Virus record (IMG/VR): IMGVR_UViG_3300035670_000602
Span: 1-38,449 of that record
Direction: 5' to 3' (one strand)
From: a virus
DNA length: 38,449 bases
The notes below the pieces were generated by a model. That model had not been told where the DNA came from and did not search any database. It was given only the letters and a program-made list of their open reading frames with translations. Positions 109-20,193 of the stretch are shown here, piece after piece. The position numbers and the translations under genes were made by a program. Within the stretch, counting starts at the first letter, position 1, and every line of letters begins with the position of its first letter.

Positions 109-933
109 CTAGGGTGTTTCGCACTTGCGATGCACGATCCGTTCGTCGCCAGTTCGTCGCGTGTAGTTCGCCCACCATTCGTTTGCTCTGCCTGCCTGCA
201 TCGCACGCTCTGGATCTGTAGCGATGCGAGCCTCGCATTGTGCGGCAGGCGACTCAACAACAATAACGCTTTCACACTCCAGGCGATCTGCCCACCATTG
301 TCTCTTGTCTGCTTCCGGCTCAGCGACCACAAGCCACGCCCGTGCATAGCGTCTGGCGTCTGCCTTGCTCAGCGTACCGATGATGTCATTCCGCTTTCGC
401 ACCGCAGGCCCAAGCCACTTAGCACCCCATGCGTGTAGCGTGGTGCCGGCCATGCCAGATGCGATCACGTCCAGGTCAATGACCAGATCGGCTGGCCCCT
501 TGTGCATCTCAACATAGGTGCTCTTGCCCGACGCTGGAGGCCCGCACACCAGCGTCACCGGAATGATGCTTGGCCGTATCCACGTTGGGTGAAGCGTCCA
601 CTTTTGCGACTGCGTTTGGCCCTGCATCTCACGCCGAGTCTTCTTGCTGTGGCAGGAGGCACACAGCGTCTGTAGGCCAGACACGTCGTCACTCGGCAGT
701 TCGCTCTTGCGCACGACGTGATCGACATGAGCGTTGCGGCCCGTCACGATGCGGCCACAGCCAGGAGCCTGGCACTGGTAGTTATCCCGCAGCAGCACCT
801 CTCGCCGTGCGGCCTTCCAGCCTGCCGAGCAATAGCCTCGAGCTGTCGCCGATGGCCGGTTCGTGTCCGGTGCCCGTGGCCGCTTTCGCTGCCCCACCCA
901 CGGCGGCTTGAACGTCGGCAGCCTGTCGGGCAT
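109..933 (-). CDS. HNH endonuclease fused to a P-loop (AAA_33-like) kinase
   Basis: This 274-residue protein has two domains. Residues about 40-103 form an HNH nuclease with zinc-binding Cys54, Cys59, Cys91 and Cys94 and the His69-Val-Asp71-His72 core. Residues about 125-270 form a P-loop kinase with Walker A at 131-139 (GPPASGKST), an Asp153-Leu-Asp155 motif and an Arg/Trp-rich lid region, resembling polynucleotide-kinase-like proteins. The start is an ATG one base after the stop of the preceding gene. HNH proteins beside cos and terminase assist cos cleavage in HK97-like phages, and on a circular map this gene abuts the terminase. The pairing of a nuclease with a possible end-modifying kinase is unusual. 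The kinase substrate is unknown. Confidence 0.8.
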   Translation of the reverse strand: MPDRLPTFKPPWVGQRKRPRAPDTNRPSATARGYCSAGWKAARREVLLRDNYQCQAPGCGRIVTGRNAHVDHVVRKSELPSDDVSGLQTLCASCHSKKTRREMQGQTQSQKWTLHPTWIRPSIIPVTLVCGPPASGKSTYVEMHKGPADLVIDLDVIASGMAGTTLHAWGAKWLGPAVRKRNDIIGTLSKADARRYARAWLVVAEPEADKRQWWADRLECESVIVVESPAAQCEARIATDPERAMQAGRANEWWANYTRRTGDERIVHRKCETP

Positions 934-9801: not shown

Positions 9802-10191
9802 TCACTGCAATCGCTCCAGTAGGTTGCGGAGCGTGGCGGCGTCGGCCGCTCGCCCTCCCTGATCGTAGAACACGGATGCGAACCGGATCGCCTCCCGTTC
9901 CGCGTCGGTGAGCGTGGGCTGCGGCTCGCGGTAGAGCGGAACGAACGTCGCGCCGGAAATCGCCATCCACTCGGCACGCATTCGTTCCACGTCGCACGCC
10001 GGGTCGCTATAGAAAACGTCATACGGCTGGCCGTCGGATTTGTAAACCGCCCACGCCACCGGCTCCTGTGTATCGCCGGTGCCCATGCCAGCCGTCACGC
10101 TCTGCGCCGAGCGGAGTGGGCTGGCGTCTGTCGGGGCTGTCGCCGCCGGCGCGGCGTCATGATTTATTCGCTTCTGCTTGCCGTTGCTCAC
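9802..10191 (-). CDS. Hypothetical early protein, PVAWAV...VPLYR type
   Basis: This 129-residue protein has a low-complexity N-terminus, then EPVAWAVYKSDG and FVPLYREPQPTLTDAERE, a layout I recognise from many uncharacterised phage proteins, and ends in the local module AATLRNLLERLQ. I chose the GTG at 10191 because it overlaps the upstream TGA (GTGA) and has GAGAGG 6 nt before it. A GTG at 10227 is possible. Function is unknown in all relatives I know of. Confidence 0.65.
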   Translation of the reverse strand: MSNGKQKRINHDAAPAATAPTDASPLRSAQSVTAGMGTGDTQEPVAWAVYKSDGQPYDVFYSDPACDVERMRAEWMAISGATFVPLYREPQPTLTDAEREAIRFASVFYDQGGRAADAATLRNLLERLQ

Positions 10192-10649
10192 GCCACACCT
10201 CTCGGGCTGCAGATGCCGTTCCGCCACTTGGAAACCTTGCTCTGCGTGTTCGTCACGTCCTCACGCATCCGCTCTTGCATGTGCCGTTCCTTCAGCACCG
10301 CCTTCAGCCGCTCGATCTCGTCTGGCGACGGGTCCACCGTGCTGCGTTCCTTCTCCACCTTCGGCCGCTTCGGAAGTTTCATCCGTTGAGCGTAGGAGTA
10401 CATCGTGCCGATGGACACGCCGCACCTATCGGCGATCTCTTGCGTCGGAACTCGCTCCACCCACAGCCGATGGATCTCGGCTGCCGATAGCTTCGGCCGC
10501 TTGCCGCTACTGCGTCTCTCCAACCCGAACTTCCGCGTGGCACGGTGCACGCTGTCCTCGGAGCAGCCCAGCTTGGCTGCGATCTGAGAAGCCGTGAGCC
10601 CCTCAGACCGCAGCGCCAGCAATTTCTCGTAGTCGATGCGGGCTGCCAT
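10188..10649 (-). CDS. Tandem helix-turn-helix DNA-binding protein
   Basis: This 153-residue protein has two helix-turn-helix units: residues about 5-45 (LTASQIAAKLGCSEDSVHRATRK) and about 52-92 (VPTQEIADRCGVSIGTMYSYAQRM), then a basic linker and a long helix. The ATG at 10649 has GGAG 5 nt upstream and follows the dnaN stop by 2 bp. A GTG two codons earlier overlaps that stop. Tandem Hin- or resolvase-type DNA-binding domains without a catalytic part suggest a transcription regulator or DNA-bridging protein. A weak C-terminal similarity links it to the protein at 6673-6963. Confidence 0.72.
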   Translation of the reverse strand: MAARIDYEKLLALRSEGLTASQIAAKLGCSEDSVHRATRKFGLERRSSGKRPKLSAAEIHRLWVERVPTQEIADRCGVSIGTMYSYAQRMKLPKRPKVEKERSTVDPSPDEIERLKAVLKERHMQERMREDVTNTQSKVSKWRNGICSPRGVA

Positions 10650-10651
10650 GG

Positions 10652-11764
10652 TCACTCCGTGGCCAGCGGCATGATCACGCCGGTGAACGTGTCCGTACGA
10701 AGCACGACGGCCGACTGAGCGTCCGTGGCCTGGACGCTCACCGTTGGCTCGCCGTCAGCCGGCAGGCCCGAGAGCCACTCGCGGACGAACACCGGATCCA
10801 GCTTCACCGTGCACGCCTTGCCGGCCTCCACGATTTCGCACGTCACGCTCGATTCGCCGGCCTCGGCCGACTGCCCGTGCAAGTGAATGCCTTCAGCCGT
10901 GAACGTGTACTGCACGCCCTTCGACTGCTCGCTCGTCACGATGGCTGCGGCCCTGGTCGCCGAGAGCAGCGCCGTGGCCAGCACCGTGGTCGGCTCGCCG
11001 CCGTCCGCCGGGATCACGTCGCGCCACCGTGGGAAGCGGCCCTCGGTCAGCCGAGCCGTAACGGTCGTGCCGCCGATGGTGGCCAGCAGCTCGTTGCCAG
11101 TGGCCTCCAGCTGCACCGAGTCCTCGCCGGCCGCCACCGCGACTCGTGCCAGGATCTGCATCACGCGGCTCGGCACGAGCGTCGTGCTGTCATCGACGGC
11201 CAGGTCGTGCTCCATCTCGCACGAGCACAGCCGGCGGCCGTCCGTGGCCACGAAGTTGACCACGCCGTCCTTCACGTCCACGAGCACCGCACCGAGGGCG
11301 TAGCGGCTCGACTCCTGGTCGGCGGCGAACACCACGCCACGCACCGCCCGAGCGAACTGGTCGGCCGGGAGCCTCGTCACCGGCTTCGCGTCCGCCGGCT
11401 CCCAGATCGGGTACTCGGCCGCGTCCTCGACAGGCAGCGTCCACGTGCCGTGTCCACACCGCACGACGCACGACGTGCCCTTCGGTTCCAGCGTCACCTC
11501 TTCGCCACCGGCGGCGTTCAGGATTGCCATGAGACGCCCGTGGGGCAGCAGCATGGCATCGCCGTGGTAGTCGATGGCGGCGTCGATCCGCACCTCGAGA
11601 TCCGTGCCGGTCACGAGCCCGTCACCCAGACGCACGTTCGTCAGGATGGGCTTTGGTGCCCGGCTTGGCACAGCCGGGCTTACAGCGGCCAGCGCATTCT
11701 TCAGCTCGGCGGCGCTCAATGTGATGCCACCACTCTTGCGACGTTCCTTCGTTGCCGTAGCCAT
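10652..11764 (-). CDS. dnaN: DNA polymerase III beta subunit (sliding clamp)
   Basis: This 370-residue protein matches the three-domain beta clamp in length and order. Domain 1 covers about 13-125 (ITLSAAELKNALAAVS, PILTNVRL), domain 2 about 130-255 (FVATDGRRL at 171-179; LVPSRVM), and domain 3 about 258-370 (RFPRWRDVIP just before it, ending VIMPLATE like the bacterial VIMPM end). It would encircle DNA and bind clamp-binding motifs of polymerase, ligase or mismatch proteins. I chose the ATG at 11764 with AAGGA upstream. Another in-frame start at 11797 is less likely. No DNA polymerase gene is present in the window, so it probably recruits the host replicase. Confidence 0.93.
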   Translation of the reverse strand: MATATKERRKSGGITLSAAELKNALAAVSPAVPSRAPKPILTNVRLGDGLVTGTDLEVRIDAAIDYHGDAMLLPHGRLMAILNAAGGEEVTLEPKGTSCVVRCGHGTWTLPVEDAAEYPIWEPADAKPVTRLPADQFARAVRGVVFAADQESSRYALGAVLVDVKDGVVNFVATDGRRLCSCEMEHDLAVDDSTTLVPSRVMQILARVAVAAGEDSVQLEATGNELLATIGGTTVTARLTEGRFPRWRDVIPADGGEPTTVLATALLSATRAAAIVTSEQSKGVQYTFTAEGIHLHGQSAEAGESSVTCEIVEAGKACTVKLDPVFVREWLSGLPADGEPTVSVQATDAQSAVVLRTDTFTGVIMPLATE

Positions 11765-11873
11765 TGGAAATCCTTTTCTTTGAGAGAGAACAACCAACCA
11801 AAACGCCTAGCACGAACGTGCAGGCGAGACTTATGTGGCCCAGTGAAATCAGGGCGAATTGTTCAAGCGTCAT
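11622..11873 (-). CDS. Small membrane protein overlapping dnaN start
   Basis: This 83-residue reading has one strong membrane segment at about 6-28 followed by a basic stretch and a Cys-containing tail. Its ATG overlaps the upstream stop (ATGA). It overlaps the first 143 bp of dnaN in another frame, which is long for this genome, yet the clamp homology begins within the overlap, so both frames would have to be used. The membrane part is upstream of the overlap and looks genuine. The tail after about residue 37 may be relaxed. It is possibly real, with moderate support. Confidence 0.5.
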   Translation of the reverse strand: MTLEQFALISLGHISLACTFVLGVLVGCSLSKKRISNGYGNEGTSQEWWHHIERRRAEECAGRCKPGCAKPGTKAHPDERASG

Positions 11874-12103
11874 AGCGACATCCCCGGGTCTTCATCACCG
11901 AGCAGCGGAAACCGCATCGACGCCATCTCGGCTTCGACTACTTCGAGCACCTTGCTCGTGGCCACCAGGCGAGCCATGAGCGAGACGATCGTGTCGTGGG
12001 CTTGCTCGAGCAGCAGTCTCGACTCATCGTCAATCTCGTCACGCCACGCAGAGGCTAGGCACGTGTCGGCAACCGCTTGCGGGGAAGGGGCACGGCGGCT
12101 CAT
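11870..12103 (-). CDS. Hypothetical early protein
   Basis: This 77-residue protein is helical and acidic, with a Leu/Glu-rich middle (LLLEQAHDTIVSLMARLVA) that could form a coiled coil. The ATG at 12103 overlaps the LexA-like stop (ATGA) and the end overlaps the next small gene, so it is part of a tightly coupled string. Nothing in the sequence identifies a function. Confidence 0.65.
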   Translation of the reverse strand: MSRRAPSPQAVADTCLASAWRDEIDDESRLLLEQAHDTIVSLMARLVATSKVLEVVEAEMASMRFPLLGDEDPGMSL

Positions 12104-12324
12104 GACACCACCTCGATTCCCCTTCCGACGCGCGGACGGCGGCGGATGTAACCCTTTTGCTCCAGCGCCTCCAAATGGCACATGACGCCGTTTGGCGACT
12201 TCATTCCGAGCGCGGCGGCAATCTCGCGCACAGTCGGCCCGTAAAAGCCGATGTTCTGGCGGATGAAGTCGTAGACCTCCTGCTGCCGCTTGGTCATCTT
12301 TTTCTGTTCAGCGTCCGTGCTCAT
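12100..12324 (-). CDS. LexA-type DNA-binding domain protein lacking the peptidase domain
   Basis: This 74-residue protein aligns along its length with the N-terminal winged helix of LexA: LTxRQQEVxDFI is mirrored by MTKRQQEVYDFI (10-21), then PTVREIAAALGMKSPNGVMCHLEAL and the RGIEV end. Full LexA continues into an S24 autoproteolytic domain, absent here. It could bind SOS-type operators without being cleaved, competing with host LexA, or act as a phage regulator. The SPNGVMCHL recognition region resembles planctomycetal LexA in my recollection. A good Shine-Dalgarno (AAGGAG, GAGG) precedes the ATG. Confidence 0.82.
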   Translation of the reverse strand: MSTDAEQKKMTKRQQEVYDFIRQNIGFYGPTVREIAAALGMKSPNGVMCHLEALEQKGYIRRRPRVGRGIEVVS

Positions 12325-12357: not shown

Positions 12358-12951
12358 TCAACCTGCGGCGGACGATCTCGAATCCTGCGACGGTGGGCAC
12401 GGCCTGGCCGGTCCTGCACCGGCCATGGCCGTGGCCTCACTGTTCTTCTCACTGGTTCTTACTGAAGAACCACTGAGAAATACTGAATTCCGCGCACAAC
12501 CTGTGCGCGCTGCGCGCACGACCGGTGCGCGCTCCGCGCACGCCTCGTGTCCGGAGCGCGCACACTGTGTGTCCGGGGCGCGCACGCCTTGTGCGCGCTG
12601 GCGCGCACACTGTGTGTCCGGGGTGCGCACACCTTGTGCGCGCTCGCAGATCCTGAACGCCGTCCGGGCCGTTCCTTCGCCCTTCTCCAAAACCTCCAAA
12701 ATCCCGGCTTTAACGAGTTGGGCAGTTCCCCTCCGTACACTGGTCGGGTGTACACAAAGGCTCTTTGCCGCCCGGCGGTAGGTGTACCGGATCTCGCAGC
12801 TGGTCCAGTTTGCGTTCAGGAAGACGTACAAGGCCACCAGACGGCCTTCGCTGCCCAAGCCGGCCAGGGAGCCGTCGTCCATGAACGCCCGCCAGCGGCG
12901 ACGTAATTCGCCCTTACGCGACGGCTGCTTTTCGTACGGATGAGCGGCCAT
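12358..12951 (-). CDS. Winged-helix replication-initiator-like protein (lambda O-like layout)
   Basis: This 197-residue protein has a basic N-terminus (1-25), a winged helix at about 36-100 (GRLVALYVFLNANW, then a recognition-helix region HPTSVRRGTAQLVKAGIL), a repeat-encoded linker at about 102-153 and a Ser/Ala-rich C-terminus. The ATG overlaps the helicase stop (TAATG). The linker DNA is an iteron array with an AT-rich block beside it, which matches the lambda O arrangement of origin inside initiator gene. The protein probably binds those iterons and recruits the helicase encoded just upstream. No sequence similarity to O itself is claimed. Confidence 0.65.
   Translation of the reverse strand: MAAHPYEKQPSRKGELRRRWRAFMDDGSLAGLGSEGRLVALYVFLNANWTSCEIRYTYRRAAKSLCVHPTSVRRGTAQLVKAGILEVLEKGEGTARTAFRICERAQGVRTPDTQCARQRAQGVRAPDTQCARSGHEACAERAPVVRAARTGCARNSVFLSGSSVRTSEKNSEATAMAGAGPARPCPPSQDSRSSAAG
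12439..12491. other. AT-rich block with phased ACTG repeats, candidate DNA unwinding element
   Basis: About 62% A+T over 12441-12490 in a genome that is roughly the reverse. ACTG occurs at 12439, 12451, 12461, 12472 and 12482, close to one per helical turn. A perfect inverted repeat TGGTTCTT-ACTG-AAGAACCA spans 12453-12472. It lies directly beside the iteron array and inside the initiator-like gene. Origin unwinding elements have this character. The assignment is inference. Confidence 0.5.
12492..12646. repeat. Seven 22-bp iterons, candidate replication origin
   Basis: GCGCAC occurs at 12492, 12514, 12536, 12558, 12580, 12603 and 12625, a period of 22 bp with one step of 23. In units 1, 2, 5 and 7 the partner GTGCGC follows after a 5-bp spacer, making each a palindrome. 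The other units have a GTGTCC variant there. The period is not a multiple of three, so the repetition is not driven by protein sequence even though it is inside a gene. This points to DNA-level selection as protein-binding sites. Confidence 0.75.
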
Positions 12952-14732
12952 TAGATGACGCTCCAATCCGTGCTGTCGGGCCGGTGGGCAAACTGCTTGA
13001 ACTCCTCGATCTCGCCGACGACCGGAGCCGCCCCGTCTTCAAACTGCTGGTACTTCCCGAAGAACCAGAGCTCGACATCGGACATCTGCCCCTGCCGCAG
13101 CTTCTTGCACCGCCACTCGATCTTGATGCCGCCTTCATCGCAGGTCTCGCCGGATCGGTGGCCAAACAGGAAGTTGTCCACGTCAAAGTCGATCTGGTTG
13201 CTGCCCTTCCCGATGTTGCCGATCTCCGTGTTCTGGTCGCATCCCTTGGCGATGTTGGTGACCAGGAGCGTCGCCATGTTGTGGGCCGTGGTCATCTGCC
13301 GCAGCTTCCGAAGGCAATCCACGATCTCGCCCGTAGCGTCCTGAAAATGCCGGCTGGACTGCACGAGTTGGACGTAGTCGACGACCAGCAGCTGCGGCTT
13401 GTCCTTGGCTACGGCCCGCTCGATACGGTCGATGACCAGCGGTGCTTCGATGATCTTGAGCCGCCGCCCGATCTGCTCGCCCATTCCGACTGCGATCTCG
13501 TCCGCCGGCGGCTTCTTGTGGATCACGTCCTGCAGGGTCAGGCCACGCTGCCGCCCGTCAAAGTTGGTGATCGCTCGAGCGGCTAGCGCCGCCTTGGTCA
13601 TCTCGCCAAGGCACCACGTGGCGACAAGATCGGAGTTCTCGACCAGGCACTGGATCGCCAGGTGCAAGGCAAGGGCCGACTTGCCGACGCCAGGTGCCGC
13701 AGCCAGGGCGGTCATCTGCCCGAGGGGCAGCCCGCCGTCAAAGAGCCTGTCGAGCGACGGGATGCCGGTCGGTAGGGCAGGCGTGCTTTCCTGCTGCCGC
13801 CATGCCTCGATGGCGTCGAGGAGAGTCGGCGTCGGCGTTTCGTCAGCGGCGTCATTTACCGGCACGGCCTCGTCCGCAGACCCGATCACCGGGAGCCTCG
13901 GCCGCTTCCAGGCATTAGCGATCTGACGCGGGCAGTCCTCAAGATCGTCAGCCCGCAGACCAACCGACCGCATCCGTGACATGATGGTGGCAGTTGCATC
14001 TGCCACGCCCCACCCCCGGGCCGCCATGTCGCAAGCGACCGTAAACATGGTCTGCCGTCTGCCGGCGGCGAGCGTGAATCCTTCCTCGAGGAACCGGCGG
14101 GTCAGGTCGCTCATGCTCTTGGGAGCGACGACAATCGACTGGGCCGCCTGACTCTGGAACGCCTTGATGTCATAGACCCGCGTCGGGTCACAGTCCCAAA
14201 GATGCGCACGCGGCGTCTGCTCGTACTTCCAGTTGATGAAGCCCGGGAGCCGCATGATTCGCGGCCAATCGCACACGGACTGGTCGGAGCCGACCGCTGA
14301 AGCAATCGCCTTCATGCGGTCGTGCCAAGCGACGTGATTGAAGACGGCCTCGCTCAGTCTCCACCAGGCGTGAACGCCGCCGCCGCTTTCGATGATTGCG
14401 GTCGGCATCGGGAATCCGGCGCCTTTGATGCGGGTTAACGCATCCTCAACGACCACGCCGCCGTCGAAGTCCGCGAAGAGGCAGCGCGCCAGTTTCACGC
14501 CATCAGCCTGGCTGGCCCCCTTCGCGTTCCTCGGGTTTGCACCGAAGTAGGCATGCACCCGCAGCTGCTCGTCGGAGTTGAGCTTGTGCAGCCAATCAAC
14601 GATGTCGGGCAGTTCCGAGAGCGGAGCCCACTTGCGGCCGGCGTTCTGCGGCGGAAGCGGCCGGAACTCGATGATGTCCTCGGGCTCAAAGATCGCGCCG
14701 AGGAAGTCAATGCACTGGCCGAGGGCGTCCAT
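12951..14732 (-). CDS. Prim-pol/DnaB-like replicative helicase fusion
   Basis: This 593-residue protein has two parts. Residues about 1-200 look like an archaeo-eukaryotic primase-polymerase domain: Asp88-Phe-Asp90 in LFADFDGG, SGGGVHAWW at 116-124, and an RLPGFINWK box at 161-169. Residues about 320-565 form a RecA-fold DnaB-type helicase with Walker A at 346-352 (APGVGKS) and Walker B ending at Asp452 (LLVVDYVQL). It would unwind the fork and prime DNA. I chose the ATG at 14732, preceded by AGGAAGCAGG, over a longer reading into the upstream gene. The next gene starts within its stop codon. Confidence 0.85.
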   Translation of the reverse strand: MDALGQCIDFLGAIFEPEDIIEFRPLPPQNAGRKWAPLSELPDIVDWLHKLNSDEQLRVHAYFGANPRNAKGASQADGVKLARCLFADFDGGVVVEDALTRIKGAGFPMPTAIIESGGGVHAWWRLSEAVFNHVAWHDRMKAIASAVGSDQSVCDWPRIMRLPGFINWKYEQTPRAHLWDCDPTRVYDIKAFQSQAAQSIVVAPKSMSDLTRRFLEEGFTLAAGRRQTMFTVACDMAARGWGVADATATIMSRMRSVGLRADDLEDCPRQIANAWKRPRLPVIGSADEAVPVNDAADETPTPTLLDAIEAWRQQESTPALPTGIPSLDRLFDGGLPLGQMTALAAAPGVGKSALALHLAIQCLVENSDLVATWCLGEMTKAALAARAITNFDGRQRGLTLQDVIHKKPPADEIAVGMGEQIGRRLKIIEAPLVIDRIERAVAKDKPQLLVVDYVQLVQSSRHFQDATGEIVDCLRKLRQMTTAHNMATLLVTNIAKGCDQNTEIGNIGKGSNQIDFDVDNFLFGHRSGETCDEGGIKIEWRCKKLRQGQMSDVELWFFGKYQQFEDGAAPVVGEIEEFKQFAHRPDSTDWSVI

Positions 14733-14734
14733 AA

Positions 14735-15283
14735 CTACCTGCTTCCTTGTTTGCCGCCGCCGCGCAGATCGGCAGCAATGTGCGGATCGCCGTCGCAAAC
14801 GTCTTCATAGGCGATGGTTCCGTTAAACCAGAGCCTTAGTCTTTGGTCGCTTCGTCCACGCGTGTGCGCAACTCCAATGCGGTGCTGGACCATCACCGAC
14901 TCGAGGTCGTTTTTTGGCGGCTCGCACGGCCAAATAAAAACAAACCGAGACATAACGGCGAAGCCGTTTGGCGTGTCCCAGACGCACCGCGTGTAGTCCA
15001 TTGCCTGTGAGACAACCCGTCCGACTTTCGTGCCAGACTTCTTGCATTCGATTCCGACGATTCCCCAACGCCATCCCCTCTCAATGAGCGCCTTCTTCGG
15101 CTGAAGAAGAACGTCAATGCGTGGCCTGCCGGTTCCGTTCGTGTCCATGCGTGGATGCAGCATCCATCCGTCAACTTCCTGCAACACATGCCAGTGCGTC
15201 GGATTAACAATCTCCAGCAAAGCAGAGACGGCATCCGGCTCCGTCTGATAGTCGCCGCAAGTCAGCACTTGATCAGGGTACAT
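14735..15283 (-). CDS. PD-(D/E)xK-like nuclease
   Basis: This 182-residue protein has a restriction-endonuclease-fold signature: Asp57 in GRPRIDVLLQPKK, then Glu79-Cys-Lys81 in WGIVGIECKKSG, followed by a helix with Gln93 (VVSQAMDY). Spacing fits PD-(D/E)xK enzymes of the kind used in phage recombination or DNA degradation. The ATG at 15283 has GGAAGG upstream. It precedes the primase-helicase gene, so a role in replication-linked end processing is likely. Exact activity (exo- or endonuclease) cannot be told. Confidence 0.75.
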   Translation of the reverse strand: MYPDQVLTCGDYQTEPDAVSALLEIVNPTHWHVLQEVDGWMLHPRMDTNGTGRPRIDVLLQPKKALIERGWRWGIVGIECKKSGTKVGRVVSQAMDYTRCVWDTPNGFAVMSRFVFIWPCEPPKNDLESVMVQHRIGVAHTRGRSDQRLRLWFNGTIAYEDVCDGDPHIAADLRGGGKQGSR

Positions 15284-19257: not shown

Positions 19258-20193
19258 ATGACGCTGCGAGACCTGCTGATTGACCGGATCGCCCCGCTGA
19301 AGAACCTGAACGACCGCTCAGTGCTGATGTACCTGAGCACGCTAGAGCGGTTCCGAGACTTTTTAGGGCACGAGCCAACCGTCGATGACCTCGATGACCT
19401 GACGGCCGCCAAGTTCCTCCGGTGGCGTGGCAGCACCGTCCACAGCAAGCGGCGTGGCCTGATCTCGCCGGCCTCGCTGGCGAAAGACTCTGCCCATATC
19501 CGCAGCCTGTGGACTTGGCTGGCGAAGAAGCGATGGAAGAGGTCAGACGGCGAGTTGATCGAGTTCCCTGACTACGCCCGCCCACGCGTGCCAAAGCCCG
19601 TACCGAAGGCGTACAAGGCTGAGGAACTGGCCCGCCTGGTCGATGCCGCCAAGCACCGCAAGGGGCACGTAGCAGGCAAGCCAGCGGCCTGGTACTGGGT
19701 GACGAAACTGCAGGCCATGTTTCAGACCGGAGAGCGGATCGGTGCGGTGATGGCCCTGCGGTGGTCAGAGGTGGATCTGGAGCGGCACACACTGACGTTC
19801 TTGGCAGCGACCCGTAAGGGGCACAGAGAGACGATTACGCGGCCGATCACTCCAGCACTGGCCCGATGCCTAGCCATGCACAAAGGCGATCCTGGCGAAC
19901 GTGTATGGCCCTGGCTGGAGGATCGTGAAATGCTGTCCTGCTACGCCAGCCTGAGGGTTCTGTGCCGCACGGCGGGCGTGCCGTACAAGCCATTCCACTC
20001 AATCCGCAAGGCGACGGCTTCCTATCTGAAACGGGCTGGAATCTCAGCTAAGAAGCAGCTGGGGCATTCGTCCGAGGAAATGGCCGAAACCCACTACTAC
20101 GACGAGGAAATCACGGGGCGGGAGTCTAATCTCGACTACCTTCCAGACATTAACCAGCCGCCGACTGATGACGGCGATAGGCCAGCGGCTTGA
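19258..20193 (+). CDS. int: Tyrosine-recombinase integrase
   Basis: This 311-residue protein has a SAM-like core-binding domain at about 1-95 and a catalytic domain at about 118-285. The catalytic set is visible: Arg160 in TGERIGAVMALRW, Lys187, His247-Ser-Ile-Arg250 in FHSIRKATASYL, His270 in QLGHSS, and nucleophile Tyr280 or Tyr281 in THYYD. It would integrate the phage into, and excise it from, the host chromosome. It is one of only two plus-strand genes. The attachment site could not be located, as no flanking host DNA is present to compare. AAAAGGAG precedes the ATG. Confidence 0.93.
   Translation: MTLRDLLIDRIAPLKNLNDRSVLMYLSTLERFRDFLGHEPTVDDLDDLTAAKFLRWRGSTVHSKRRGLISPASLAKDSAHIRSLWTWLAKKRWKRSDGELIEFPDYARPRVPKPVPKAYKAEELARLVDAAKHRKGHVAGKPAAWYWVTKLQAMFQTGERIGAVMALRWSEVDLERHTLTFLAATRKGHRETITRPITPALARCLAMHKGDPGERVWPWLEDREMLSCYASLRVLCRTAGVPYKPFHSIRKATASYLKRAGISAKKQLGHSSEEMAETHYYDEEITGRESNLDYLPDINQPPTDDGDRPAA

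Follow-up and report, generated by a model that had tools for sequence, protein, structure and literature searches.

Several replication origins that have been described share features with the locus considered here. The origin of phage lambda lies within gene O, as do the O origins of Stx phages, and is built from inverted-repeat iterons around a 5-bp centre, which are followed by an AT-rich segment and then a hairpin (PMC7466680). Read as a yardstick in the present analysis, lambda has four 18-bp iterons inside O, spaced at 20/24/23 bp and palindromic around the 5-bp centre; beyond them lie a stretch of 77% A+T and a hairpin with 12-bp arms. Its initiator has an N-terminal winged-helix fold, the loader P is encoded beside O, and the helicase is the host's DnaB. 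The oriV of IncQ plasmids such as RSF1010 has 3.5 copies of a repeat with a 22-bp period and operates with an iteron-binding initiator, its own helicase and a RepB-type primase. The IncQ1 iterons are direct repeats located outside repC. In RSF1010, the RepB' primase primes at ssi hairpins (PMC4434180, PMC4234260), and primase and helicase are separate polypeptides (PMC4234260). In pRN1-type plasmids, an essential stem-loop origin is found just downstream of a primase-helicase gene, with conservation of its structure rather than its sequence (PMC4234260).

The DNA analyzed here, referred to as the window, is a stretch of 38,449 nt from an uncultured phage (IMG/VR record IMGVR_UViG_3300035670_000602, positions 1-38,449). 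It contains a gene for an O-like winged-helix initiator, and the 3' half of this gene very probably houses a replication origin module that would act by the mechanism proposed below. In the best-supported reading, this putative origin is lambda-like in layout but differs in its partners and in its conserved hairpins. As in lambda, inverted-repeat iterons with a 5-bp centre lie inside the initiator gene, the order is iterons, AT-rich segment and hairpin, and the predicted N-terminal fold of the initiator is a winged helix. However, the window has seven iterons (relatives have six or seven) at a strict 22/23-bp spacing, the AT-rich element is itself a hairpin, an additional GC hairpin is present, and the C-terminus of the initiator is short and predicted to be disordered. 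In place of a loader, the window has a phage-encoded primase-helicase fusion upstream. No homology was detectable when the initiator was compared by hhalign with the single lambda O sequence (probability 0.2%). An earlier, sequence-only reading had proposed a lambda-O-style origin inside the initiator gene; the same array in relatives, the match to the lambda layout and the O-type fold all support this proposal.

With IncQ, the locus shares the 22-bp period and the combination of a putative iteron-binding initiator with its own helicase and a RepB-type primase. In contrast to the IncQ1 arrangement, the iterons here are palindromes inside the initiator gene, the primase and helicase are fused, and the nearest solved structures for the helicase are those of DnaB. 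The IncQ plasmid used for comparison was located via a short RepC fragment. By hhalign, the initiator is not similar to IncQ RepC (probability 0.5%) and the primase is not similar to IncQ1 RepB, despite its Pfam RepB_primase match. The pRN1-type plasmids resemble the locus in the stem-loop just downstream of the primase-helicase gene and in the retention of structure over sequence, but they use an SF3 helicase with a fused winged helix and have no iterons.

The initiator gene and the DNA of its 3' half

The coordinates of the principal features are collected in Table 1. The stop codon of the primase-helicase gene overlaps the initiator start codon (TAATG), and the initiator gene directly follows. 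The earlier reading had placed the array within the coding sequence of a winged-helix protein next to the replicative helicase gene, and the open reading frame, this overlap and the predicted structure agree with that placement. In the AlphaFold2 model, residues 13-105 form a confident winged helix, with pLDDT mostly above 90, whereas the C-terminal part has pLDDT mostly below 50 and is predicted to be a mostly disordered tail. The N-terminal ~105 aa constitute the DNA-binding domain, and the remainder is encoded by the candidate origin DNA. A Foldseek search with the model found a resemblance to predicted phage replication O proteins. Some relatives' initiators match the O-like families PHROG 678/270/391, with a best E of 4.7e-8; the window's own initiator reaches only an E of 0.036.

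Table 1. Positions of features in and around the candidate origin (window numbering; iterons are numbered in gene order)
Feature	Position	Strand	Description or basis
RepB-type primase fused to DnaB-type helicase	12951..14798	(-)	Pfam RepB_primase 3.6e-8, DnaB_C 5.7e-21
O-like winged-helix initiator gene	12358..12951	(-)	197 aa from ATG at 12951; ORF/translation, AlphaFold2, Foldseek, PHROG matches of relatives
Thr70 codon (numbering from Met 12951)	12742..12744	(-)	Second residue of predicted recognition helix; top co-varying column
Iteron array	12491..12644	(-)	Seven 17-bp palindromes NNNNAC-N5-GTNNNN; steps 22, 22, 22, 22, 23, 22 bp in plus-strand order
Iteron 1	12625..12641	(-)	First in gene order
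Iteron 2	12603..12619	(-)	
Iteron 3	12580..12596	(-)	
Iteron 4	12558..12574	(-)	
Iteron 5	12536..12552	(-)	
Iteron 6	12514..12530	(-)	
Iteron 7	12492..12508	(-)	Adjoins AT-rich element
AT-rich element	12439..12485	(-)	CAGT five times (plus strand: ACTG), in steps of 10-12 bp
AT-rich hairpin	12446..12479	(-)	15-nt arms with 14 pairs, 4-nt loop; compensatory change
Second hairpin, GC-rich	12405..12425	(-)	8-bp arms, 5-nt loop; outer stem extends fold
Small LexA-DNA-binding-domain protein, downstream	12100..12324	(-)	Pfam 1.2e-20

In gene order on the minus strand, the array comes first and is followed by the AT-rich hairpin. The palindromes span 12492-12641 as a 22-bp repeat with one 23-bp step, and TRF reports the array with a period of 22/44 and a score of 171. 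GCGCAC had earlier been read at seven positions, which are the plus-strand starts of the seven iterons and are correct to the base. CAC-N5-GTG occurs in every one of the seven units, which are palindromes around a 5-bp centre; where several had been described as completed by GTGCGC, all seven are palindromic and four end in GTGCGC, the right end of the other three being GTGTCC. AC-N5-GT units spaced 21-24 bp apart form chains of up to seven in the window; in 100 mononucleotide shuffles, no chain exceeded three. A scan of the window for iteron sites found none without mismatch outside the array, and sites with two mismatches were no more frequent than expected by chance.

The most A+T-rich 50 bases beside the last iteron have 62% A+T, and ACTG recurs at 12439, 12451, 12461, 12472 and 12482, in steps of 12, 10, 11 and 10; both features had been recognized from the letters. 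The hairpin reported there is also present, with arms at 12446-12460 and 12465-12479, but it is not perfect, since 14 of 15 positions are paired. As single-stranded DNA, the hairpin segment of the window folds with a z of -9.0. The AT-rich element is itself a conserved, co-varying hairpin and is followed by a second, GC hairpin, both of which the first reading had missed. It had likewise missed that the neighboring gene encodes a RepB-type primase joined to a DnaB helicase instead of a loader, and that one residue of the recognition helix co-varies with the iterons.

Conservation of the module among relatives

Searching IMG/VR with the helicase yielded 46 loci; the close group grew by only a few in two additional scans. 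An HMM of the N-terminal domain of the initiator shows that, in the relatives too, this gene comes directly after the helicase gene. A search of relatives for the array at the same gene position, a check that had been suggested for the origin, found six or seven AC-N5-GT palindromes in the same place in 26 of 32 non-redundant related loci with an O-like gene, and divergent ~22-bp repeats in the same place in the remaining six. In most of the 26, just one step measures 23 bp, and its position is fixed. The letters of the unit vary among genomes (GCGCAC, GGTCAC, GACCAC, TGGCAC, TTGGGAC), while the period and palindromic form persist. In loci L015, L018, L020 and L023, ~22-bp repeats of different sequence are found, three of them detected by TRF and that of L018 read by eye. 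About three non-palindromic 22-bp direct repeats lie in the same place in L037 and L041, whose helicases have 45% and 41% identity, respectively. Apart from these two, the distant helicase relatives examined (33-58% identity) have no 22-bp array near the gene.

The hairpins recur with the array. Pairs were counted on sequences aligned at the loop centre, as the MAFFT alignment had misplaced L039 and L098. Across 23 loci, Watson-Crick pairs fill 259 of 276 cells of the AT-rich hairpin, and sliding one arm lowers this number to 61-86. The count of 259 is inflated towards structure because each locus's best inverted repeat had been preselected as its arms. The argument for the hairpin is therefore carried by the compensatory changes and the fixed position: at least two Watson-Crick pair types occur at 12 of 12 positions in these 23 loci, and 18 of 21 loci have exactly 37.5 bp between the centre of the last iteron and that of the hairpin. 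The second, GC-rich hairpin follows after another 40-58 nt in all 23 loci, in several of which its score alone is not beyond that of shuffles.

This geometry bears on whether the array is instead an operator through which the winged-helix protein autoregulates transcription, with replication starting elsewhere. Palindromes are typical of dimer operators, and the winged-helix domain has weak MarR/GntR-type profile matches, but the array is located some 300 bp into the gene, in the 3' half, and the phage has no second site above chance. Seven phased copies, their fixed 37.5-bp relation to the AT-rich hairpin and the neighboring primase-helicase all fit an origin better, and we consider a purely regulatory array unlikely. 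As part of an origin, the iterons may also autoregulate the initiator gene.

It is very unlikely that the winged-helix protein binds the array as a partition centromere or packaging site. The centromere-binding protein AspA is among the weak fold matches of the initiator, and phased repeats do occur in centromeres, but no ParA-like gene was found among the ORFs scanned, which are part of all ORFs, the phage has an integrase, and the terminase genes are far off at the window ends (36.3-37.9 kb and 0.1-0.9 kb).

The wider genome offers several further observations. The integrase gene (19258-20193, plus strand) is oriented against almost all of the other recognized genes, and from its presence the phage is probably temperate. 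An ORF at 109-933 (minus strand) has matches to HNH endonuclease and terminase small subunit families and, across the window ends, neighbors the large terminase; with terminase genes at both ends, the record may represent a circular genome that has been cut, although no terminal repeat was found in the window. Among the relatives, L034 and L044 represent one helicase gene split across the two ends of a single 36,063-base contig, which suggests a complete circular or permuted genome. A DNA polymerase processivity factor is encoded at 10652-11797 (minus strand; PHROG 947, E 4.4e-53), and an ORF at 10188-10655 (minus strand) has sigma-70 region 4 / HTH matches. The cumulative GC skew has no turn at 12.5 kb, which counts against the origin reading. 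Rfam and tRNA searches found nothing.

Half-site letters, residue 70 and the coding frame

The predicted recognition helix comprises residues 70-82 in the numbering of the model, which runs one higher than that used here. Residue 70 is associated with the half-site letters with a z of 9.26 in 19 representatives and 9.71 in 18 representatives, and ranks first among 308 columns (78 of the initiator and 230 of the helicase). That no helicase column equals it argues against mere kinship as the source of the association. Threonine is paired with GCGCAC, GGACAC or GGGCAC, asparagine with GGTCAC, GCACAC or GTACAC, and methionine with GACCAC or GCCCAC; the exceptions are L098 (Thr70 with GGTCAC) and L039 (Thr70 with TGGCAC). 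Only three or four independent switches of residue 70 can be counted on the helicase tree, too few for significance alone, so that the tree-based test is without power. The co-variation supports the O-like protein as the putative iteron binder, with residue 70 of the recognition helix as the leading candidate for a specificity switch.

The small LexA-like protein encoded downstream is also a DNA-binding protein and is found in most loci. It is nonetheless highly improbable as the iteron binder, since the half-site letters are associated with the O-like recognition helix and no such gene was found downstream in L012 and L027-L030 (at least 4 kb was searched in L012, L027, L028 and L030), all of which retain the array. 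By this comparison, the LexA-like protein appears not to be required for the array.

The DNA of the putative origin must also encode protein. In 26 of 27 genomes, frame 0 runs through the array and the hairpins without a stop, whereas nearly all have a stop in at least one of the other frames. In genomes with GTGACC right arms, TGA is present in one of nine copies where it would be in frame versus 23 of 29 elsewhere (Fisher p 4.5e-4, with genomes that are non-independent). The exception is L098 (4775-5233), where a stop interrupts the initiator frame within the iteron array, either through a sequence error or because a shorter protein is functional. Despite the open frame and this avoidance of in-frame TGA, selection of the repeat for an encoded repeated peptide rather than as DNA is scarcely credible, as the 22-bp spacing rotates the frame such that the copies encode different peptides (the misfit with codons had been pointed out in the sequence-only reading), the palindromes and spacing persist while the protein letters change in a region predicted to be disordered, and L098 retains the array around a stop.

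A proposed mechanism and its significance

From the anatomy of the locus and the comparison with known systems, we infer that the locus functions as an origin, from binding by dimers through melting and helicase loading to initiation. The O-like winged-helix protein would bind the seven palindromic iterons as dimers, with one dimer per 22-bp unit. As 22 bp is about two helical turns, the dimers would lie on roughly one face of the DNA and form a compact protein-DNA array. This array would strain and melt the AT-rich element 37.5 bp away, which could extrude as a hairpin. The phage primase-helicase, whose gene immediately precedes that of the initiator and is translated in tandem with it, would then be loaded at the melted element and prime synthesis. 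As no polymerase turned up in the scanned ORFs, the primers are probably extended by a host polymerase.

By analogy with the use of ssi hairpins by the IncQ primase (PMC4434180, PMC4234260), a possible priming role is suggested for the hairpins here. A tentative extension, which we regard as possible rather than probable, is a hybrid origin, in which lambda-type iterons would melt the DNA and the AT-rich hairpin, perhaps with the GC one, would act as an IncQ-like priming site for the fused RepB-type primase-helicase. Such an origin could start without a host loader or primase, and iterons and initiator would switch specificity together within a nearly fixed geometry.

The earlier reading took the host to be a planctomycete, which is weakly supported: the closest cellular relatives of the primase are in one Planctomycetota MAG, and a search of three Planctomycetota genomes found no O-like gene. 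An element in a Planctomycetota MAG (L054, 7869-10298) encodes a protein that starts with the same primase domain (58% identity) and then diverges; its gene adjoins an integrase-like gene. Within a collection of cultured phages, a DNA similarity search gave no match and a protein search only partial, distant ones. A search with the initiator alone also gave no match. A limited search of the literature found no description of such an origin.

The locus provides a candidate origin for uncultured phages of a group to which no near relative was found in the cultured-phage collection. Among the relatives, the initiator-iteron pairs form a natural series: the letters change several times, whereas the spacing, palindromic form and distance to the hairpin are nearly fixed. 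This series makes it possible to test how the specificities of an initiator and of an origin lying within the initiator gene can shift in concert although the DNA must go on encoding the protein.
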